Source: Haloplanus sp. HW8-1 (GTDB lineage Archaea > Halobacteriota > Halobacteria > Halobacteriales > Haloferacaceae). Taken from it: 64,000 bases of DNA. Of the stretch, positions 32,709 through 64,000 are shown one piece after another (the first letter of the stretch is position 1; every line of letters begins with the position of its first letter). The translations under genes and the position numbers were made by a program. The notes beneath the pieces are model-generated. The model was not told the DNA's origin. It made no database searches and worked only from the letters and a program-made list of their open reading frames with translations. The stretch covers positions 62,001-126,000 of the forward strand of contig NZ_CP098518.1 of the NCBI RefSeq assembly GCF_023703795.1, written 5' to 3'.

Positions 32709-34370
32709 ATGAGTCAGCGAATGCAGCAGGGTCAGCCGATGATCATTATGGGCGAGGACGCCCAGCGCGTCAAGGACAAAGACGCTCAGGAGTACAACAT
32801 CTCGGCGGCCCGCGCAGTCGCGGAGTCGGTACGCTCGACGCTCGGTCCGAAGGGGATGGACAAAATGCTCGTCGACTCGATGGGCAGTGTCACCATCACC
32901 AACGACGGCGTGACCATCCTCCAGGAGATGGACATCGACAACCCGACGGCAGAGATGATCGTCGAGGTCGCCGAAACACAGGAGGACGAGGCCGGCGACG
33001 GGACGACGACGGCCGTCGCCATCGCGGGAGAACTCCTGAAAAACGCCGAGGATCTCCTCGATCAGGACATCCACCCGACGGCCATCATCAAGGGATTCAA
33101 TATGGCGGCCGAGCGTGCCCGCGAGGAGGTCAACGACGTCGCGGAGCGCGTCGATCCCACGGACGAGGACCTCCTGCGGAAGGTCGCGGAGACGTCGATG
33201 ACGGGCAAGAGCTCGGAACTCGACAAGGATCTGCTCGCCCGGCTGGTCGTGGAGGCGGTGCAGGCTGTCACCGTCGAGGCCGAGGACGGGAGCCACGTCG
33301 TCGACCTCGAGTTCGTCGAGGTCGAGACCCAGACCGGCCGCTCCGCCGCGGAGTCCGAACTCCTCAACGGCGCGGTCATCGACAAGGACCCCGTCAACGA
33401 CGACATGCCCGTCGAGTTCGACTCGGCGGACGTGCTCCTGTTGAACGAGGCGATCGAAGTCGAGGAGACCGACGCCGACGCGTCGGTCAACGTCGACAGC
33501 CCCGATCAACTCCAGCAGTTCCTCGACAGCGAGGAACAGCAACTTCGCGAGAAGGTCGACCAGATCGTCGCCACCGGCGCCGACGTGGTGTTCTGCCAGA
33601 AGGGCATCGACGACCTCGCGCAGTACCTGCTGGCCCAGGAGGGCGTCCTCGCGGTGCGCCGGACGAAGAAATCCGACATGGGCTTCCTGCAGGAGATCCT
33701 CGGCGCCGAGATCGTCTCCGATCTCGATGCCGCCACCGACGCCTACCTCGGCACCGGTCGGATCACCCGCGACGCCGACGCCGGCCTGTTCTACGTCGAG
33801 GGATCGGACGCCCACGGCGTGACGATCCTCCTGCGAGGCTCGACCGAGCACGTCGTCGACGAACTCGAACGCGGGATTCAGGACGCCCTCGACGTGGTGT
33901 CCTCGACCACGGCCGACGGTCGCGTCCTCGCGGGCGGCGGTGCCGTCGAGGTCGAACTCGCCGGTCGCCTGCGTGACTACGCCGACAGCGTCAGCGGCCG
34001 CGAGCAACTCGCGGTCGAGGCCTTCGCCGACGCCGTCGAGGTCGTGCCGCGCGTCCTCGCCAGCAACGCCGGCCTCGACAGCATCGACACGCTCGTCGAC
34101 CTGCGTGCCGCCCACGAGTCGGGCGATACGCGCGCCGGCCTCAACGTCTTCACCGGCGACGTGGTCGACACCTTCGACGCCGGCGTCGTCGAACCCGCCC
34201 ACTCGAAAGAGCAGGCACTCTCCTCGGCCACCGAGGCCGCGAACCTCGTGCTGAAAATCGACGACATCATCGCCGCGGGCGACCTCTCGACCTCCGGCGA
34301 CGAGGACGAGGGTGCCGGCGGTCCCGGCGGCGGCATGGGTGGCATGGGTGGCATGGGCGGCGCGATGTGA
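32709..34370 (+). CDS. thsA: Thermosome subunit (group II chaperonin)
   Basis: A 553-residue CCT/thermosome subunit that forms a double-ring ATP-driven folding chamber in the cytoplasm. Equatorial motifs are intact: [31 protein letters not shown] and the third ATPase aspartate in [11 protein letters not shown] followed by LAGGGAVE. The C-terminus ends in the family's Gly/Met repeat ([11 protein letters not shown]). Which haloarchaeal paralogue (1, 2 or 3) it is cannot be decided. It serves as a good intact reference for the divergent paralogue at 61.9-63.6 kb. Confidence 0.95.
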
Positions 34371-55103: not shown

Positions 55104-56285
55104 TTACTCGACGTCGACCGTGCCACCGGTGTCGGGATCGCCGCGGGCGAACCGCTTTCCGGTGGTGGTGTTGAACAGGTACAGCGTCGGTACTTTGGGG
55201 AGGATCGTCGCGTGTTCGTCCTCCGGAATCACCTCTTCGACGGGGACGACGGCGCGCATCTCCCCCTGTGGCCCTTCGAGGTACATGTGTACCTCGTCAC
55301 CGAGTGGCTCGTGTAGGTCCACGGTCGTCTGGATGCCGGGGGTGTCCGGATCGGGGGTTGCCTGAATCTTTCGCGGCCGGAAGCCGAGCTTGATGTCTTC
55401 GCTCGCCTCGTCGGGAAGGTACTCCCCGATGTTGAACGAGAACCGCGGACCGTCGTCGACGTCGACGACGGCCCGTTCGTCGTCGATATCGACGACCGTG
55501 GCGTCGAGCAGGTTGATCTCGGGCGATCCGATGAACTCGGCGACGAACGTGTTGTTGGGGATCCGGTAGACCTCCTCCGGGTGTCCGACCTGTTCGATCT
55601 GTCCGTCGTTCATCACCGCGATCTTGTCCGACATCGTCATCGCCTCCTCCTGGTCGTGGGTGACGTAGACGATGGTGGCGTCGAGTTCCTTGTGGATTCG
55701 GCTGAGCTCCTTGCGCATCTCGCGTTTGAGCTTCGCGTCCAGGTCGCTCATCGGCTCGTCCATCAGGAACGCGACCGGCTCGCGGACGATCGCCCGGCTG
55801 ATGGCGATCCGCTGTTGTTGCCCGCCGGACAGCTCCCCGGGATACTTGTCGAGCAGCCCGTCGATCTGGACGATCTCGGCGGCCGTTTCGACCCGTTCGG
55901 TTCGCTGCTCCCGGGACATGCCGGCCAGCTTGAGCGGGTACTCGATGTTCTCCCGCGCCGTCATGTGGGGGTACAGTGCGATCCGCTGGAACACCATCGC
56001 GAGGTCGCGGTCCTGCGGGGAGGTGTCGATCGCTTCCTCGCCTTCCAGGTAGAGTGTCCCCTCCGTCGCCGTCTCGAGGCCGGCGATACAACGGAGAGTC
56101 GTGGTCTTCCCACATCCACTCGGGCCGACGAGGGTGACGAAGTCACCCTTCTGGATGTCGAGGTCGACGCCGTCGACCGCCACCTCGATGCCCGACGGGA
56201 TGTCGAACTCCTTGCGAAGGTTCTGAAGCGATATCTGTGTCTGGTCGTCCGGCAACGAACTTCGGTTCCGATCTGTTTTGCTCAT
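55104..56285 (-). CDS. ABC sugar-type importer, ATP-binding protein
   Basis: 393 residues of the MalK/UgpC class: Walker A LVGPSGCGKTTTLR, Q-loop VFQRIALYPHM, signature ELSGGQQQRIAISRA, Walker B FLMDEPMSDLD and H-loop YVTHDQEEAM. A C-terminal TOBE/OB regulatory domain (~245-390) follows. It energises import by the two permeases encoded upstream and is the last gene of the four-gene operon, with two bases to the preceding permease gene. Confidence 0.92.
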   Translation of the reverse strand: MSKTDRNRSSLPDDQTQISLQNLRKEFDIPSGIEVAVDGVDLDIQKGDFVTLVGPSGCGKTTTLRCIAGLETATEGTLYLEGEEAIDTSPQDRDLAMVFQRIALYPHMTARENIEYPLKLAGMSREQRTERVETAAEIVQIDGLLDKYPGELSGGQQQRIAISRAIVREPVAFLMDEPMSDLDAKLKREMRKELSRIHKELDATIVYVTHDQEEAMTMSDKIAVMNDGQIEQVGHPEEVYRIPNNTFVAEFIGSPEINLLDATVVDIDDERAVVDVDDGPRFSFNIGEYLPDEASEDIKLGFRPRKIQATPDPDTPGIQTTVDLHEPLGDEVHMYLEGPQGEMRAVVPVEEVIPEDEHATILPKVPTLYLFNTTTGKRFARGDPDTGGTVDVE

Positions 56286-56287
56286 TG

Positions 56288-57184
56288 TTAGAGTCCTCCG
56301 GTGCGGAATCCTTCGAGGATGCTTTCCTGCAACTTGTACACCAACAGGAACGGCGGGATCGACATCAGCGTCGACGCCGCCATGATCTGCCCCCAGTAGA
56401 CGTAGTTCTGCTGGACGAACGTCTGGACTGCGGGTGGCAGTGTCTGCATGGAACTATCCGGGAGCAGGATCGTCGCCATCGTGAAGTCGTTCCAGCTAAC
56501 TGCGAACGTGAAGATGGCCACGGCGACCATTCCGGGTTTCGCCATCGGGATCGCCACGTCCTTGAACGAGTGGAACTGTGAGGCCCCGTTCATCCACGCG
56601 GCCTCCTCGTACGCGATGGGGACCGTCTGGAAGAACTTCCACATCATCCACATCGCGAACGGCAACGAAATGGCGATGTGAGCGACGCTGATCCCGATGT
56701 AGCTGTTCAGCAGGCCCAGCCGCCGCCAGATCTGGTACTGCGGGAACGCCAGCAGGATCGGCGGGAACATGTAGCTGAACAGGATCAGCCGGGCGAAGTT
56801 CTTTCGGCCGCGGAACTGGACCCGGGTCAGGCCGTAGCCCGCCAGCGTGGACGCGCCCACGGTCGAGACGATCGCGATCACGGCCACGAGGACGCTGTTG
56901 AAGTACCAGCGTTCGAAGTTACGGTCGGCGAACACGCTGATGTACGCGTCGATCTGCAGGGCGGCGAGCACCTGCGTCGGGAACCACGTCGGGGTCCGCA
57001 CGATGTGGTCGTACGGCTGGACCGACGCCACCAGCATCCAGTACATCGGGAACATCATCACGGCACACGTCAGGACGACGACGGCGTACAGCGCCACCTT
57101 CCTCACCTGCAGGCGCTCCTGGTAGGGGAGGATTCCCGAGAGGGTCGACTGGATCCGGTTCGAGATCCTATCGGTGAATACCAT
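56288..57184 (-). CDS. ABC sugar-type importer permease (MalG-like)
   Basis: 298 residues, six membrane helices. The cytoplasmic coupling motif is EEAAWMNGASQFHSF then KDVAIPMAKPG, which docks to the ATPase. The C-terminus PPFLLVYKLQESILEGFRTGGL, ending in G-KG-like residues, is typical of the MalG subgroup of carbohydrate importers. Its ATG shares one base with the stop of the other permease gene. Confidence 0.9.
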   Translation of the reverse strand: MVFTDRISNRIQSTLSGILPYQERLQVRKVALYAVVVLTCAVMMFPMYWMLVASVQPYDHIVRTPTWFPTQVLAALQIDAYISVFADRNFERWYFNSVLVAVIAIVSTVGASTLAGYGLTRVQFRGRKNFARLILFSYMFPPILLAFPQYQIWRRLGLLNSYIGISVAHIAISLPFAMWMMWKFFQTVPIAYEEAAWMNGASQFHSFKDVAIPMAKPGMVAVAIFTFAVSWNDFTMATILLPDSSMQTLPPAVQTFVQQNYVYWGQIMAASTLMSIPPFLLVYKLQESILEGFRTGGL

Positions 57185-58140
57185 CAGCGACCCACCTCCT
57201 CAGCGGGGTTGAAGCCGACGAAGTAGACGATGGCGCCAGCCCCGAGGAACGCGAACAGCGTCCCGGCGATCGCACCGGCCTGGCCGAGTTTGAAGTCGAG
57301 GAACGCCACCTCGAAGATGTAGATCGGGAGCGTCGTCGTCGCCGATCCCGGGCCACCGGTGGTCATGATGTAGATGATGTCGAACTTGTTGAACATCCAG
57401 ATGCCCCGCAGCAGCAGCGTGAGCAGAATGACGCCCTTGATCTGGGGAAGTGTGATGTCCCGGAACTTCCGGAGCGGCCCCGCCCCGTTCATCGTGGCCG
57501 CCTCGTAGAACTCGTTGGGGATCGACTGTAGCCGGGCCAGCACCATGATCGTGATGAAGATGGCGAACTTCCAGGAGTTCGCGACGATCAGGGTCGGCAG
57601 GGCGATGTCACCCGACGACAGCCATCCGATGGGCTGGTTGATGAGCCCGATGTCGACGAGGAAGACGTTGATGATCCCGTAGTTCCCGTTGAGCATCAGC
57701 CGGAACACCATCCCGACCACCACGGTCGGAATGAGATACGGGAGGAAGATCATCGCTCGCGCGAGGACGACGCCCCGGAACTCCCGCGAGAGCATCAGCG
57801 CCGTGCCGACGCCGATGACGAGCTGGAGCGCGACCGAGCCGAAGCCGAACGAGACGCTGCGCCAGAACGCGTTCCAGTAAGACGGGCTGTTCAGCACGCC
57901 GATGTAGTTCTCGATACCCACCCACGTCCACGTCGGCGACAGGGCGCCTGCGTCGTAGAGGCTGAGATTGAGCGCCCACAGGATCGGCAGGAACGACGCG
58001 AACAACATCAACAGCGCGGCTGGCCCGACGGTCAACCCGATGAGGGCCTTCTTGTCCCCAAACAGGCTTTCGAGCAGTCCATCCCAGGATTTTTTCGGTA
58101 TTCTGAACCAGTTATTAACTGTGTCTTGTAATGTACTCAT
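57184..58140 (-). CDS. ABC sugar-type importer permease (MalF/UgpA-like)
   Basis: 318 residues, about six membrane helices; the coupling loop is YEAATMNGAGPLRKFRDI then TLPQIKG. ATTTLPIYIFEVAF near the C-terminus is the family pattern of carbohydrate permeases. It pairs with the next gene product to form the channel. The substrate is not determinable; a sugar, oligosaccharide or polyol is likely from the family. Confidence 0.9.
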   Translation of the reverse strand: MSTLQDTVNNWFRIPKKSWDGLLESLFGDKKALIGLTVGPAALLMLFASFLPILWALNLSLYDAGALSPTWTWVGIENYIGVLNSPSYWNAFWRSVSFGFGSVALQLVIGVGTALMLSREFRGVVLARAMIFLPYLIPTVVVGMVFRLMLNGNYGIINVFLVDIGLINQPIGWLSSGDIALPTLIVANSWKFAIFITIMVLARLQSIPNEFYEAATMNGAGPLRKFRDITLPQIKGVILLTLLLRGIWMFNKFDIIYIMTTGGPGSATTTLPIYIFEVAFLDFKLGQAGAIAGTLFAFLGAGAIVYFVGFNPAEEVGR

Positions 58141-58248: not shown

Positions 58249-59766
<1,518 letters not shown>

Positions 59767-60103: not shown

Positions 60104-60520
60104 CTACTTTTCGAGGTCCGCCGGGTTCCCGTCCTCGTCGACGGTGTACGTATCCCCGTTCAGGACCGCGGGCGAGTGGATGAACATCGCCCGGAACGGC
60201 CCGTCACGGTCCGCCGGATTCCGCGGGTAGTGTGGCACTCCCGGCGGAATGAACACGAGGTGGTCGTCGGCGTGACAGGGCACCGACTCGCCGTCGACGA
60301 CGATCTCACCTTCGCCGTCGAGTCCATAGAAGGTCTCCCCGCTATACCGGTGGACGTGCGGCGTGACCGATTCCCCCGGATCGACGGTGATGATCCCCTG
60401 ATCGAACATCTGCGTGTCGCCCTGATCGACGTTCATCAGGAACTGAATGTCGATCCCGAGGCGGTCTCTGACTTCCGGTTCGTCGACGTCGTAGAGGTGG
60501 TACGACTGCGAGTGATCCAT
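60104..60520 (-). CDS. Cupin-domain protein
   Basis: 138 residues forming a single cupin barrel. Motif 1 is TPHVHRYSGETFYGLDGEGEI with the HxH...E metal ligands; motif 2 is HLVFIPPGVPHYPRN with the last His. It probably binds a metal and may be an isomerase, dioxygenase or regulator of a sugar or aromatic pathway. The start is ATG 60520 (MDHSQSYHLYDV). It lies 94 bases after the MFS gene on the same strand, suggesting a catabolic unit. Confidence 0.82.
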   Translation of the reverse strand: MDHSQSYHLYDVDEPEVRDRLGIDIQFLMNVDQGDTQMFDQGIITVDPGESVTPHVHRYSGETFYGLDGEGEIVVDGESVPCHADDHLVFIPPGVPHYPRNPADRDGPFRAMFIHSPAVLNGDTYTVDEDGNPADLEK

Positions 60521-60614: not shown

Positions 60615-61853
60615 TCACTGCACCCGGAGCCAGCAGAGACACGCGGTGCTACCGAGAAAGAACGGCAGGAGCGCCGCGAAGGCGAGTTCGTAACTGAACG
60701 CCTGCGCCACCGTGCCGATGTACGTCGGTCCCAGACTCCCCAGGAAGATGAGGAGCGTTCGGGTGCCGCCGTAGTCTCCACCCATACTCGCGTCGGGAAA
60801 GAGGCCCATGAGATACGCGTTGACGACGGGCGGAAAGCCGGTGATCCCTACCGCGAGCAGTCCCAGACCGACGAGGACCGGTCCCGACGATTCCGCGACG
60901 AACAGGACGAGAAGTCCCGCCATCCCGACCAGCGCCGACCCGATGGCGACCGTAAGATGCCGTATCCGGTCGCCGAGCGCCCCCGCCACGACGCGGGCGA
61001 CCGCACCGATCATGAAAAAGCCGATGAAGGCGTTGTTCGCGAACGTCTGTGGGTAGCCCTTCCCGAACCGGAGAAACGCTGGGAGAAACCCCAGGATGCC
61101 CTGAAAGATGAAACTGTACATAACGTAGGCCACGACGGTCCAGCGGACGAGCGGATTCCCCAGGATCCGCGAGACGGTCCCCCGCACGTTCAGTTCGCAT
61201 CCTCGGATGCCGGTTTCGTAGGTCCCCCGGTGGTGGACGTGGAGCGCCGCGGCGACGCCGACGAGCACGATCACGACCGGAACGAACGAGACGTGCCACG
61301 TCGTCGCGACCGTGATGCCGCCGACCCGCCACGTCGTGACGGCGAGGACCCCAACCGCGAGCGCGCCAGACAGCGACGTGCCCGTGTCGATCGACGACGT
61401 GTAGAGGCCGAACGCCTGTCCCCGGCGCGCGTCGAACAGAGCCGCGAGCTGTGCGTACGAAGACGGCGTGAACAGTCCGGCTCCGAGGCCCATCACGACG
61501 AGGCCGCCGACGAACCCGGCGTACGTCGTGACCTGCGTGAGGAGCACGAACCCGGTCGACATGACCGCCATCGCCCCGATCAGCACCGTCTTGTACGATA
61601 GCTGGTCGGACAACAGGCCGCCGGGATACTGCGTGAGGGCGATCGAGGCCCACATCACGGTGAGTGCGATTCCTGCCTCGGCGGACGTGATGTCGAGCGT
61701 CTCGATGATCGCCGGCAGCAAGGGGCCGAAGATGTTTCGCCCGACGAAGGCGGCGACCGTCCCGACGAGGATCAACGTCAGGAGCCGTCCGGGGTAGCCG
61801 GTCAACAGCGGTTCCCGGTCCGTCTCCGTGTTCGTGGCTGAGTGGTCCGTCAT
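60615..61853 (-). CDS. MFS transporter
   Basis: 412 residues with about twelve membrane helices. MFS signatures are visible: LTQYPGGLLSDQLSYKTVLI between helices 2 and 3, and LGDRIRHLTVAIGSALVG in the second half. The N-terminal tail is short and polar. It probably moves a sugar acid, organic acid or drug; the neighbouring cupin and dehydrogenase genes favour a carbon-source role. Confidence 0.88.
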   Translation of the reverse strand: MTDHSATNTETDREPLLTGYPGRLLTLILVGTVAAFVGRNIFGPLLPAIIETLDITSAEAGIALTVMWASIALTQYPGGLLSDQLSYKTVLIGAMAVMSTGFVLLTQVTTYAGFVGGLVVMGLGAGLFTPSSYAQLAALFDARRGQAFGLYTSSIDTGTSLSGALAVGVLAVTTWRVGGITVATTWHVSFVPVVIVLVGVAAALHVHHRGTYETGIRGCELNVRGTVSRILGNPLVRWTVVAYVMYSFIFQGILGFLPAFLRFGKGYPQTFANNAFIGFFMIGAVARVVAGALGDRIRHLTVAIGSALVGMAGLLVLFVAESSGPVLVGLGLLAVGITGFPPVVNAYLMGLFPDASMGGDYGGTRTLLIFLGSLGPTYIGTVAQAFSYELAFAALLPFFLGSTACLCWLRVQ

Positions 61854-61935
61854 TCTCTGGGTGACAGGTGTGTCGTGTCGCGCGCCGCGTTCGTCACGGC
61901 GTCGGTACGGCCTCGAAGAGCGTGCTGCCGACGGT

Positions 61936-63600
61936 TCAGGCGTCTTCAGGTCCCCACATGTCCTCGGTGGCTGGCGCGTGTTCCTGGAGGTTCGTATCGT
62001 CTCCTCCCGTTCGGGGGAGGATCGCGTCGGTGCGGAGCACCGACGACGCGAACTCCGTCGCGGTGTCGAGCGCGAGCCGTTTGATGCCGATGGGCTCGAT
62101 GATCCCGGTCTCGTATGCCGACGTGACCTCGCCGGTGTCGACGTCGAGCGCGGCGTCGCGCTCGCCCGCGTCGTGGTCGCTTCGCAGACGGGGGAGTACG
62201 TCGAGCGGGTCGTACCCCGAGTTCCGTATCAACTGTGCGACCGGTGTCTCCAGCGCCTCGGCGAACGCGTCGACGGCCAGTTGCTTCTTGCCGGCCGTCT
62301 CGGCCGCCGACGCCCGGACGCCACTGGCGGCGACGAGTTCCGCCGCGCCGCCGCCGGGGATCGCACGCGGATCGGCGGACACGGATGCCAGCGCCCCGAT
62401 CCCCTGCTTGAGGATGCGTTCGGTCAGATCGCCGCCGGTCGCCGTCCCCGCGTTGACGACGACCGACGCGATGTCGGTATCGGCGCAGTCGGCAAACAGG
62501 GTACCCTTGATCGATCCCGAGCCGAGTTCCGTCACCGTCACCCGCCCCGAGTGACCGAGCGTCGCGTCCGCGATACCGCCCGGTGCGGCGACGTCCCCTC
62601 CTACCGCCGCACGGACGCGGTCGAACTTCTCGTCCGTGAGTTGGTGGAACGCGAGGATCCCGGCGTCCGCGAGGGCGGCGAGGGTCTCACCGTTGAGGTG
62701 TCCCGCACAGACGACCACGTCCGCTCCGCTGTCACAGAGCGTTCCGAGAGCCGCCTCGTACTGCTCGTCGCGGGAGTCACTGATCGCGCTCATCGCTTCC
62801 GGTCCGGAGACGTCGACCCCGTCGATCGCGCTCAGATCCTCGACGTCGAGTCGGGAGACCGGGTCGGAAAGCAGGAGGACGTCCGCATCGACGACGTCCT
62901 GTGGCATCCCGTCGTGGGGTACGTCGCTGCGCAGGATCGTCCCCTGGATGACCCGCGACTGGTCGATCCCGAGTCGGATGTCTTGTTCGAAGTGGACGTC
63001 GTCGAGCGAGAAGTCCGGAGCCAGGACGCTGGCGACGTCGATGGACACCTGCCGGAGGTGATCGATCTGCGAGTCGACGAACCGGCCGTTGATCGCGGTG
63101 GTGACGAGTGCGTATCGCTCCCGATCGGTCCGTTCGAGTTGGAGCGCCACGTCGTCGAGGGCTTCGACCGCGGTCGTCGCCGCCCGTTCGTACCCCCGTG
63201 CGACCGTGACGGGAGATACCCCTCGTTCGACGAGTTCCTCGGCCTCGTCGATCAGTGCCGCGGCGAGCAGGACCCCGAAGGTCGACCCATCGGGGAGGCG
63301 GTCGGCGTCCCCACACGCGTCCACGAGCATTCCACCGACCGGATCGCGAACGTCGAGGCGATGGAGGATGTCGGAGCCCTGATTCGAGACGAAGCCGTCG
63401 CCGTGCGGGTCGACCATCAGTTTGTCCCGTCCGTGTGGCCCGTAGGTTGCCCGGACGATGTCCCCGAGGGAACGGACGGCTCCGAACGCTGCCTCCTGGA
63501 AGTCGTCGGCCTCGATGCGTTCCGCCGACGAGATCCGATTTACCTCTCGTTCACTCATCGTCCGGGCCGAGGACACCGAACCATTTGTATGTTCGGACAC
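61936..63600 (-). CDS. Divergent thermosome-like chaperonin paralogue, probably ATPase-impaired
   Basis: 554 residues, alignable over the whole length with thermosome subunits (YGPHGRDKLMVD; IPGGGAAELVAA; ETGIIEPIGIKRLAL). Two of the three ATP-hydrolysis aspartates are changed: NDG is NQG (Q74) and the QDAL aspartate is Gln (Q399, in ERILKQGIGAL). The GDGTT box is PDGST (103-107), keeping D104. The C-terminus lacks the Gly/Met tail. It could be a non-hydrolysing ring member or a free-standing scaffold. It is placed between a dehydrogenase and an MFS gene. The true start could be ATG 63600 or the internal Met15. Confidence 0.85.
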   Translation of the reverse strand: MSEHTNGSVSSARTMSEREVNRISSAERIEADDFQEAAFGAVRSLGDIVRATYGPHGRDKLMVDPHGDGFVSNQGSDILHRLDVRDPVGGMLVDACGDADRLPDGSTFGVLLAAALIDEAEELVERGVSPVTVARGYERAATTAVEALDDVALQLERTDRERYALVTTAINGRFVDSQIDHLRQVSIDVASVLAPDFSLDDVHFEQDIRLGIDQSRVIQGTILRSDVPHDGMPQDVVDADVLLLSDPVSRLDVEDLSAIDGVDVSGPEAMSAISDSRDEQYEAALGTLCDSGADVVVCAGHLNGETLAALADAGILAFHQLTDEKFDRVRAAVGGDVAAPGGIADATLGHSGRVTVTELGSGSIKGTLFADCADTDIASVVVNAGTATGGDLTERILKQGIGALASVSADPRAIPGGGAAELVAASGVRASAAETAGKKQLAVDAFAEALETPVAQLIRNSGYDPLDVLPRLRSDHDAGERDAALDVDTGEVTSAYETGIIEPIGIKRLALDTATEFASSVLRTDAILPRTGGDDTNLQEHAPATEDMWGPEDA

Positions 63601-63687
63601 GCCGAGCGCCGGGCCGGCGCGTGTCGGGTCCGAGACTGGAGCGGCGAGGGGACGACTCGACCGGCGGCCGACCGCTCGTCCCCCCGA

Positions 63688-64000
63688 TCAGGTTTCCGGG
63701 GTGAGCACCGCGTGGGTGATATCCGGCGTGAACTCGTCGCCGGGGAGTTGTTGTTTGATCGCCGTCTCGGCGTCGCTGACCGCGAACTCGTGGGTGTTGA
63801 TCGCCGCGATGTCCTCGCCCCGTCTGGCGACGATGTCCATCGCGCGTTCGACGTTGAGTGCCTGCCCCCGACCGCCGATGAGCATGACTTCGTCGTGGAC
63901 GAGGCTGTCGGTGTCTATCTCCGTCGTCTCCCCGACCAGTCCCGGCAGCACGACCCGTCCCTTGGGCTCGACGACCGACAGGCCGAGCTGGATGGCCTGC
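63688..64000 (-). CDS. Zinc-type medium-chain alcohol/sugar dehydrogenase, C-terminal part
   Basis: The frame is open to the window edge; only ~104 C-terminal residues are seen: AIQLGLSVVEPKGRVVLPGL, HDEVMLIGGRGQALNVERAM, then AINTHEFAVSDAETAIKQQL. This is the end of the nucleotide-binding domain and the last catalytic strands of an MDR dehydrogenase (threonine/alcohol/sugar type). The N-terminal zinc-binding part lies outside. It stands at the head of the cluster with the thermosome paralogue, MFS and cupin. Confidence 0.8.
   Translation of the reverse strand, partial: QAIQLGLSVVEPKGRVVLPGLVGETTEIDTDSLVHDEVMLIGGRGQALNVERAMDIVARRGEDIAAINTHEFAVSDAETAIKQQLPGDEFTPDITHAVLTPET

Follow-up and report, generated by a model that had tools for sequence, protein, structure and literature searches.

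In the 64,000-nucleotide stretch of Haloplanus sp. HW8-1 DNA analysed here (the window), the minus-strand reading frame 61936-63600 is intact and encodes a group II chaperonin, which we named CpnX. The gene is co-directional with a dehydrogenase gene upstream and with genes for an MFS transporter, a cupin, a substrate-binding protein (SBP), two permeases and an ATPase downstream. The features are listed below, together with their conservation in the clusters of five CpnX genomes (this one and those designated G318, G435, G436 and G341).

63688-64000, minus strand: Zn-dependent Tdh-like dehydrogenase, continuing past the window end; upstream of cpnX and co-directional, kept in 5/5 clusters
61936-63600, minus strand: CpnX, divergent group II chaperonin (thermosome) paralogue, 554 aa from GTG 63600
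60615-61853, minus strand: MFS transporter; downstream of cpnX and co-directional, in this genome and G318 only
60104-60520, minus strand: Cupin_2 protein, in this genome and G318 only
58249-59766, minus strand: sugar ABC transporter substrate-binding lipoprotein with an RR-type signal, kept in 5/5 clusters
57184-58140, minus strand: ABC permease, whose orthologues above 60% identity are confined to the five CpnX genomes among 170
56288-57184, minus strand: ABC permease 2, kept in 5/5 clusters
55104-56255, minus strand: ABC ATPase, kept in 5/5 clusters

The preferred start of CpnX, according to a codon-model gene call and the orthologues in G318 and G435, is the in-frame ATG at 63558, which gives 540 aa; the residue numbers Q60, D90, T154, R159 and Q385 refer to this form. 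A scan for promoters and terminators gave no match with its bacterial-type models, which do not cover archaeal promoters. On the plus strand, an antisense ORF of 724 aa (61828-63999) lies over cpnX and runs off the window, reaching 988 aa in L004; it is a typical high-GC shadow ORF and not a gene.

The genome encodes four chaperonins, and in alignment CpnX was 31-33% identical to the other three. Two of these are the canonical pair of CCT1/CCT2 subunits (L001 and L002), L002 being the intact thermosome in the window (32709-34370, plus strand) with which the first-pass annotation had compared CpnX. The third, L003, is a divergent chaperonin with every catalytic residue. CpnX matched Pfam PF00118 at 2.9e-98 (330 bits against a gathering threshold of 34.3; residues 46-528 on profile positions 2-486), and since all five CpnX proteins matched this profile, they belong to the Cpn60/TCP-1 superfamily. 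Scores of about 300 bits with the NCBIfam thermosome models, compared with 94 or less with the GroEL models, place CpnX in group II, and its top PDB fold matches in a Foldseek search were all group II. The AlphaFold2 model (pLDDT 86.5, pTM 0.81) has the chaperonin fold, with Mm-Cpn 3rus as its best PDB match (TM 0.84) and the lidless D386A structure 3j02 also among the matches; pLDDT fell below 50 in residues 1-15 and in the tail, 514-540. CpnX thus shares with archaeal thermosomes (PF00118; TIGR02339) the fold, the three-domain layout, the built-in-lid segment, GPxG, the P-loop Asp and GGG. However, it lacks both water-activating aspartates and the Gly/Met tail, and it fell below the cut-offs for canonical thermosomes (TIGR02339, 305.7 against 671.1; NF041082, 300.4 against 450; NF041083, 294.7 against 400).

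The substitutions were located by aligning CpnX with the genome's three other chaperonins. The ITNDG or VTNDG motif of canonical subunits is VSNQG in CpnX, GDGTT is PDGST with D90 kept, and the Asp of ERxxxD, previously annotated as that of QDAL, is Gln (Q385, in ERILKQG). In GroEL terms, D52 and D398 are lost and D87 is retained. The Gly/Met tail is gone, replaced by ...EHAPATEDMWGPEDA. Both primary observations of the first-pass annotation, that two of the three ATPase aspartates and the Gly/Met tail are missing, were therefore borne out, the former by the four orthologues as well. The sites concerned are as follows.

63379-63381, minus strand: Q60 codon, replacing the first catalytic Asp (GroEL D52, Ch-CPN D56); Gln in 4/5 and Ser in 1/5 orthologues
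63289-63291, minus strand: D90 codon, the retained P-loop Mg/phosphate-binding Asp (GroEL D87)
63097-63099, minus strand: T154 codon, equivalent to T157-alpha of the Thermoplasma thermosome, kept in 5/5
63082-63084, minus strand: R159 codon, basic residue of the nucleotide-sensing loop (canonical Lys); Arg in 5/5
62404-62406, minus strand: Q385 codon, replacing the intermediate-domain catalytic Asp (GroEL D398, Mm-Cpn D386); Gln in 5/5
61936-62019, minus strand: C-terminal tail, residues 514-540, without a Gly/Met repeat and predicted to be disordered

Equivalents of these sites in a known structure are provided by Ch-CPN, a bacterial group III chaperonin, in which D56 and D373 are described as activating the attacking water, D87 coordinates Mg, and a basic residue, Arg, contacts the gamma-phosphate (PMC5635000). 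Whereas Ch-CPN has all of its catalytic residues, CpnX has Gln at both activating positions. At the three aspartates that mark an ATP-hydrolysing group II chaperonin (GroEL D52, D87 and D398), CpnX reads Q/D/Q and its orthologues Q or S/D/Q. The intermediate-domain Asp is the one removed in the laboratory mutants GroEL D398A and Mm-Cpn D386A. CpnX differs from these mutants in that its change is natural and conserved, is to Gln rather than Ala, and is accompanied by loss of the D52 equivalent. The conserved loss of both water-activating aspartates across the five orthologues supports the prediction that CpnX is hydrolysis-deficient.

These two aspartates are two among many changes, since each CpnX member keeps 70-75, or only about half, of the 139 columns that do not vary among the canonical subunits. 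All five keep 48 of these columns, and residues of the nucleotide site are well represented in the retained set. The pocket motifs Thr-x-Gly-Pro (GPxG), Asp-Gly-x-Thr and Gly-Gly-Gly are present in 5/5 CpnX proteins, and residue mapping found the equivalents of D87, T90 and the T157 Thr in every one. In the Thermoplasma thermosome, mutation of T157 or of the second P-loop Thr made ATPase activity undetectable, which was read as blocked ATP binding (PMC5983026); both positions are retained in 5/5 CpnX proteins. The Lys of the sensing loop is Arg in all five. CpnX therefore has the residues of an ATP-binding chaperonin (Gly-Pro, P-loop D-G-x-T, the Thr157 equivalent, the sensing-loop basic residue and GGG), except that the T89 equivalent is Ser and the T91 equivalent, the third P-loop Thr, is Phe, as it is in 5/5. 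Judged from these residues, CpnX probably still binds ATP, but the Phe at T91 means that binding, likely but unproven, is possibly weak. The first-pass annotation had offered an ATP-binding-only or an ATP-free ring protein; because the pocket residues are retained in all five, the first of these is favoured and the second has lost ground.

Orthologues were sought in a sample of 391 genomes of the class and 170 of the family. Four were found, all within one haloarchaeal family: in G318, which is of the same genus as our strain (84% identity), G435 (51%), G436 (51%) and G341 (45%). The next matches fell to 32-34%, the level of ordinary paralogues. A bacterial chaperonin from Crossiella (28% identity), the sole match of a single-protein contig search, was rejected as an orthologue. 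The five CpnX proteins form one clade with 100/100 support. Four of them carry SNQG or SKQG with KQG, and that of G341 carries TNSG with AQG. The first Asp is thus replaced by Q, Q, Q, Q and S, and the second by Q in 5/5, with the Mg-binding Asp kept in 5/5. Phylogeny had been proposed as a check on co-conservation of the Gln substitutions; within this clade the second Gln is invariant and the first position is Gln or Ser. The dN/dS ratio was 0.185 between our genome and G318 and 0.115 between G435 and G436; CCT1 and CCT2, compared between these pairs of genomes, gave 0.085-0.139. All five genes have intact frames free of frameshifts. CpnX is under purifying selection and is maintained without decay, and its substitutions, which recur in four orthologues at such ratios, go beyond chance.

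In 5/5 genomes, cpnX is housed in one catabolic sugar-acid cluster. Every copy of the cluster contains the sugar ABC transporter (SBP, two permeases and ATPase), a DRL-domain oxidoreductase, VOC1 and the Tdh-like Zn-dehydrogenase; an aldehyde dehydrogenase, a second VOC, an SDR, a RuBisCO-like protein (RLP) and a kinase are frequent. In G435 and G436, cpnX directly precedes the SBP gene on the same strand. The permease orthologue occurs in the same 5 of 170 family genomes, and DRL in these five plus one incomplete MAG. Since the five genomes represent about three lineages, the co-occurrence is strong, yet should not be counted as five separate events. In genomes beyond the family, DRL and RLP occur without CpnX, so that the pathway does not need CpnX everywhere. 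The linkage itself is genuine and recurs in all five genomes, which supports a role of CpnX dedicated to this cluster. A client in the adjacent dehydrogenase/MFS/cupin group had been suggested; the idea gains from the conserved linkage, but the MFS and cupin genes accompany cpnX only here and in G318. The cluster RLP is nearest OiaX (515 bits against a cut-off of 700) and the kinase nearest OiaK. At L061:8441-11093, the RLP and kinase nearest OiaX and OiaK are below both cut-offs. Such OiaX/OiaK-like genes possibly belong to a haloarchaeal pathway for a branched sugar acid that is as yet unassigned.

When the chaperonins of 14 genomes and of haloarchaeal plasmids were surveyed, divergent ones recurred in uptake or catabolic operons, a behaviour like that of CpnX which the first-pass annotation did not see. 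One group, PairA, lacks both aspartates (Ser at the first position; Ser, Ala or Arg at the second) and keeps the Mg-binding Asp. Its gene usually converges on that of PairB, a chaperonin in which all three are mostly present, and both are found in sugar-acid clusters that also encode ABC transporters and enolase-superfamily dehydratases (L125:10731-14045, L126:9768-13273, L127:9409-12814, L128:9724-13104, L142, L144 and L164). The arrangement resembles a pseudo/active hetero-oligomer. PairA of Haladaptatus sp. QDMS2 has no adjacent PairB (L143:7001-8572), and in two Haladaptatus the second Asp is missing from PairB. PairA resembles CpnX in the loss of both aspartates, retention of the Mg-binding Asp and location in a sugar-acid cluster, but is usually partnered, whereas CpnX is solitary, and the two are only about 30% identical. 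They join at a support of 49/48 in one tree and stand weakly apart in a larger one, so that their double Asp loss may go back to one origin or to separate ones. On a Haladaptatus QDMS2 plasmid, thsB with all aspartates is followed by thsA with Asn/Asn, adjoining a GH88 gene (L158:4131-7575). With Asn at both catalytic positions of L158A and a competent subunit as its neighbour, the thsB/thsA couple is, by its residues, another predicted active/inactive pair.

Other lineages show related features. One that lies inside polyamine-type ABC transporter operons has Gln or Lys at the second Asp (L149, L150, L157, L159 and L160). Chaperonins linked to acetamidase/formamidase (FmdA) occur in several haloarchaeal genera, often with an AmiS/UreI channel (L146-L148 and L151-L154); they mostly retain the catalytic residues, except for two groups without the second Asp. 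In our genome, L003 adjoins a formamidase gene (PF03069; L003:1375-4309). In the larger tree, the first Asp changed at least three times and the second at least eight times, counts that depend on the tree since its deep branches are weakly supported; the Mg-binding Asp was never lost in the sequences read. By our own count of lineages, about 7 of 9 divergent ones lie only a few genes away from an ABC transporter. With 30-82 BPD permease matches per genome, the chance of ABC linkage is 2-5% as a rough estimate, not a computed test. In a search of the open-access literature, no haloarchaeal chaperonins were found described as Asp-deficient or as operon-embedded, a weak indication that they are new.

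On balance, we lean toward the explanation that CpnX, as a maintained group II subunit, is deficient in hydrolysis yet still binds Mg-ATP and is dedicated to the sugar-acid catabolic cluster, possibly of a branched, apionate-like kind, where it would hold or enclose a client through ATP binding. The ring would most simply be a homo-oligomer with a built-in lid, in which binding of ATP, rather than its turnover, lets a cluster-made client be held or enclosed. Release may follow slow loss of ATP, residual hydrolysis or folding of the client, as in GroEL D398A. That mutant binds ATP normally, has 3% of the ATPase activity, and efficiently encapsulates and folds protein (PMC3326522), which shows, by analogy, that a binding-driven machine can work. 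Counting against the proposal, group II rings may need hydrolysis, not binding alone, for closure (PMC5635000). The best candidate clients are the proteins found in all five clusters, namely the SBP, DRL, VOC1 and the Zn-dehydrogenase. The SBP is attractive since its RR-type signal, if it directs Tat export, would require folding in the cytoplasm. The RuBisCO-like protein is a weaker candidate. Its standing as the sole obvious client is weakened by its presence in 8 of 391 class genomes without CpnX, and also by G436, where CpnX is intact while the OiaK-like kinase is only a fragment (L065:12214-12530) and the RLP lies on another contig.

The main rival to this explanation is that CpnX serves as a regulatory, substrate-selecting subunit in mixed rings with CCT1/CCT2 (L001 and L002), the partners hydrolysing ATP while CpnX picks the client. 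Hetero-oligomeric Thermoplasma thermosomes with one hydrolysis-dead subunit, alpha or beta, do assemble as alpha8-beta8 and retain ATPase activity and part of their refolding capacity (PMC5983026), and the doubly Asp-deficient PairA and L158A are usually encoded beside an Asp-keeping partner, with PairA of Haladaptatus QDMS2 as the exception. The cpnX cluster encodes no such partner, but the genomes always have canonical subunits. Since those subunits are encoded elsewhere in the genome and are only 31-33% identical to CpnX, we consider a mixed ring unlikely, though a serious contender. A non-folding scaffold or cage for cluster proteins, working without a nucleotide cycle, has a precedent in human MKKS, BBS10 and BBS12, paralogues whose hydrolysis residues are altered and whose Gly-Pro dipeptide is kept, as in CpnX; MKKS was reported outside a TRiC-like complex (PMC2846930). 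Unlike these proteins, CpnX is archaeal, lies in a catabolic cluster and keeps the Asp of the GDG motif (D90, retained in 5/5), whose loss in GDGT marks the MKKS/BBS type, and a common origin is unsupported. Moreover, the Mg-binding Asp, the sensing-loop basic residue and the two ATP-binding threonines, all kept in 5/5, would be needless in a nucleotide-free scaffold, which makes this alternative improbable.

Appreciable hydrolysis by CpnX itself, in which Gln or other residues would place the water for attack, is less probable still. Single-Asp mutants are partly active, as the 3% of GroEL D398A illustrates (PMC3326522), but CpnX lacks both water-activating aspartates and has the second fixed as Gln in 5/5. 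The strong divergence of CpnX from canonical subunits might also suggest a redundant paralogue in random decay, and decay with frameshifts was the outcome against which the first-pass annotation had set its reading. The orthologues refute this, with frames intact in 5/5, dN/dS of 0.115-0.185, and conserved synteny and replacements, and we regard decay as scarcely credible.

Beyond the hydrolysis-deficient, cluster-dedicated CpnX favoured here, we tentatively propose, with slightly more doubt than confidence, that haloarchaea have repeatedly evolved pathway-dedicated chaperonins in uptake and catabolic operons (sugar, xylan and polyamine-type ABC transporter, formamidase and RLP clusters). Several of these lineages would be natural ATP-binding-only chaperonins, CpnX standing alone and PairA and L158A usually beside a linked, mostly ATPase-competent partner. 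Work on whether group II chaperonins need ATP hydrolysis, or binding alone, to help their clients has relied mainly on laboratory mutants. In CpnX and its analogues, such mutants have counterparts that arose in nature under selection and adjoin a small number of candidate clients, which makes the question directly testable in vivo in haloarchaea. If true, operon-embedded chaperonins would change how archaeal chaperonins, now viewed as general housekeeping machines, are understood.
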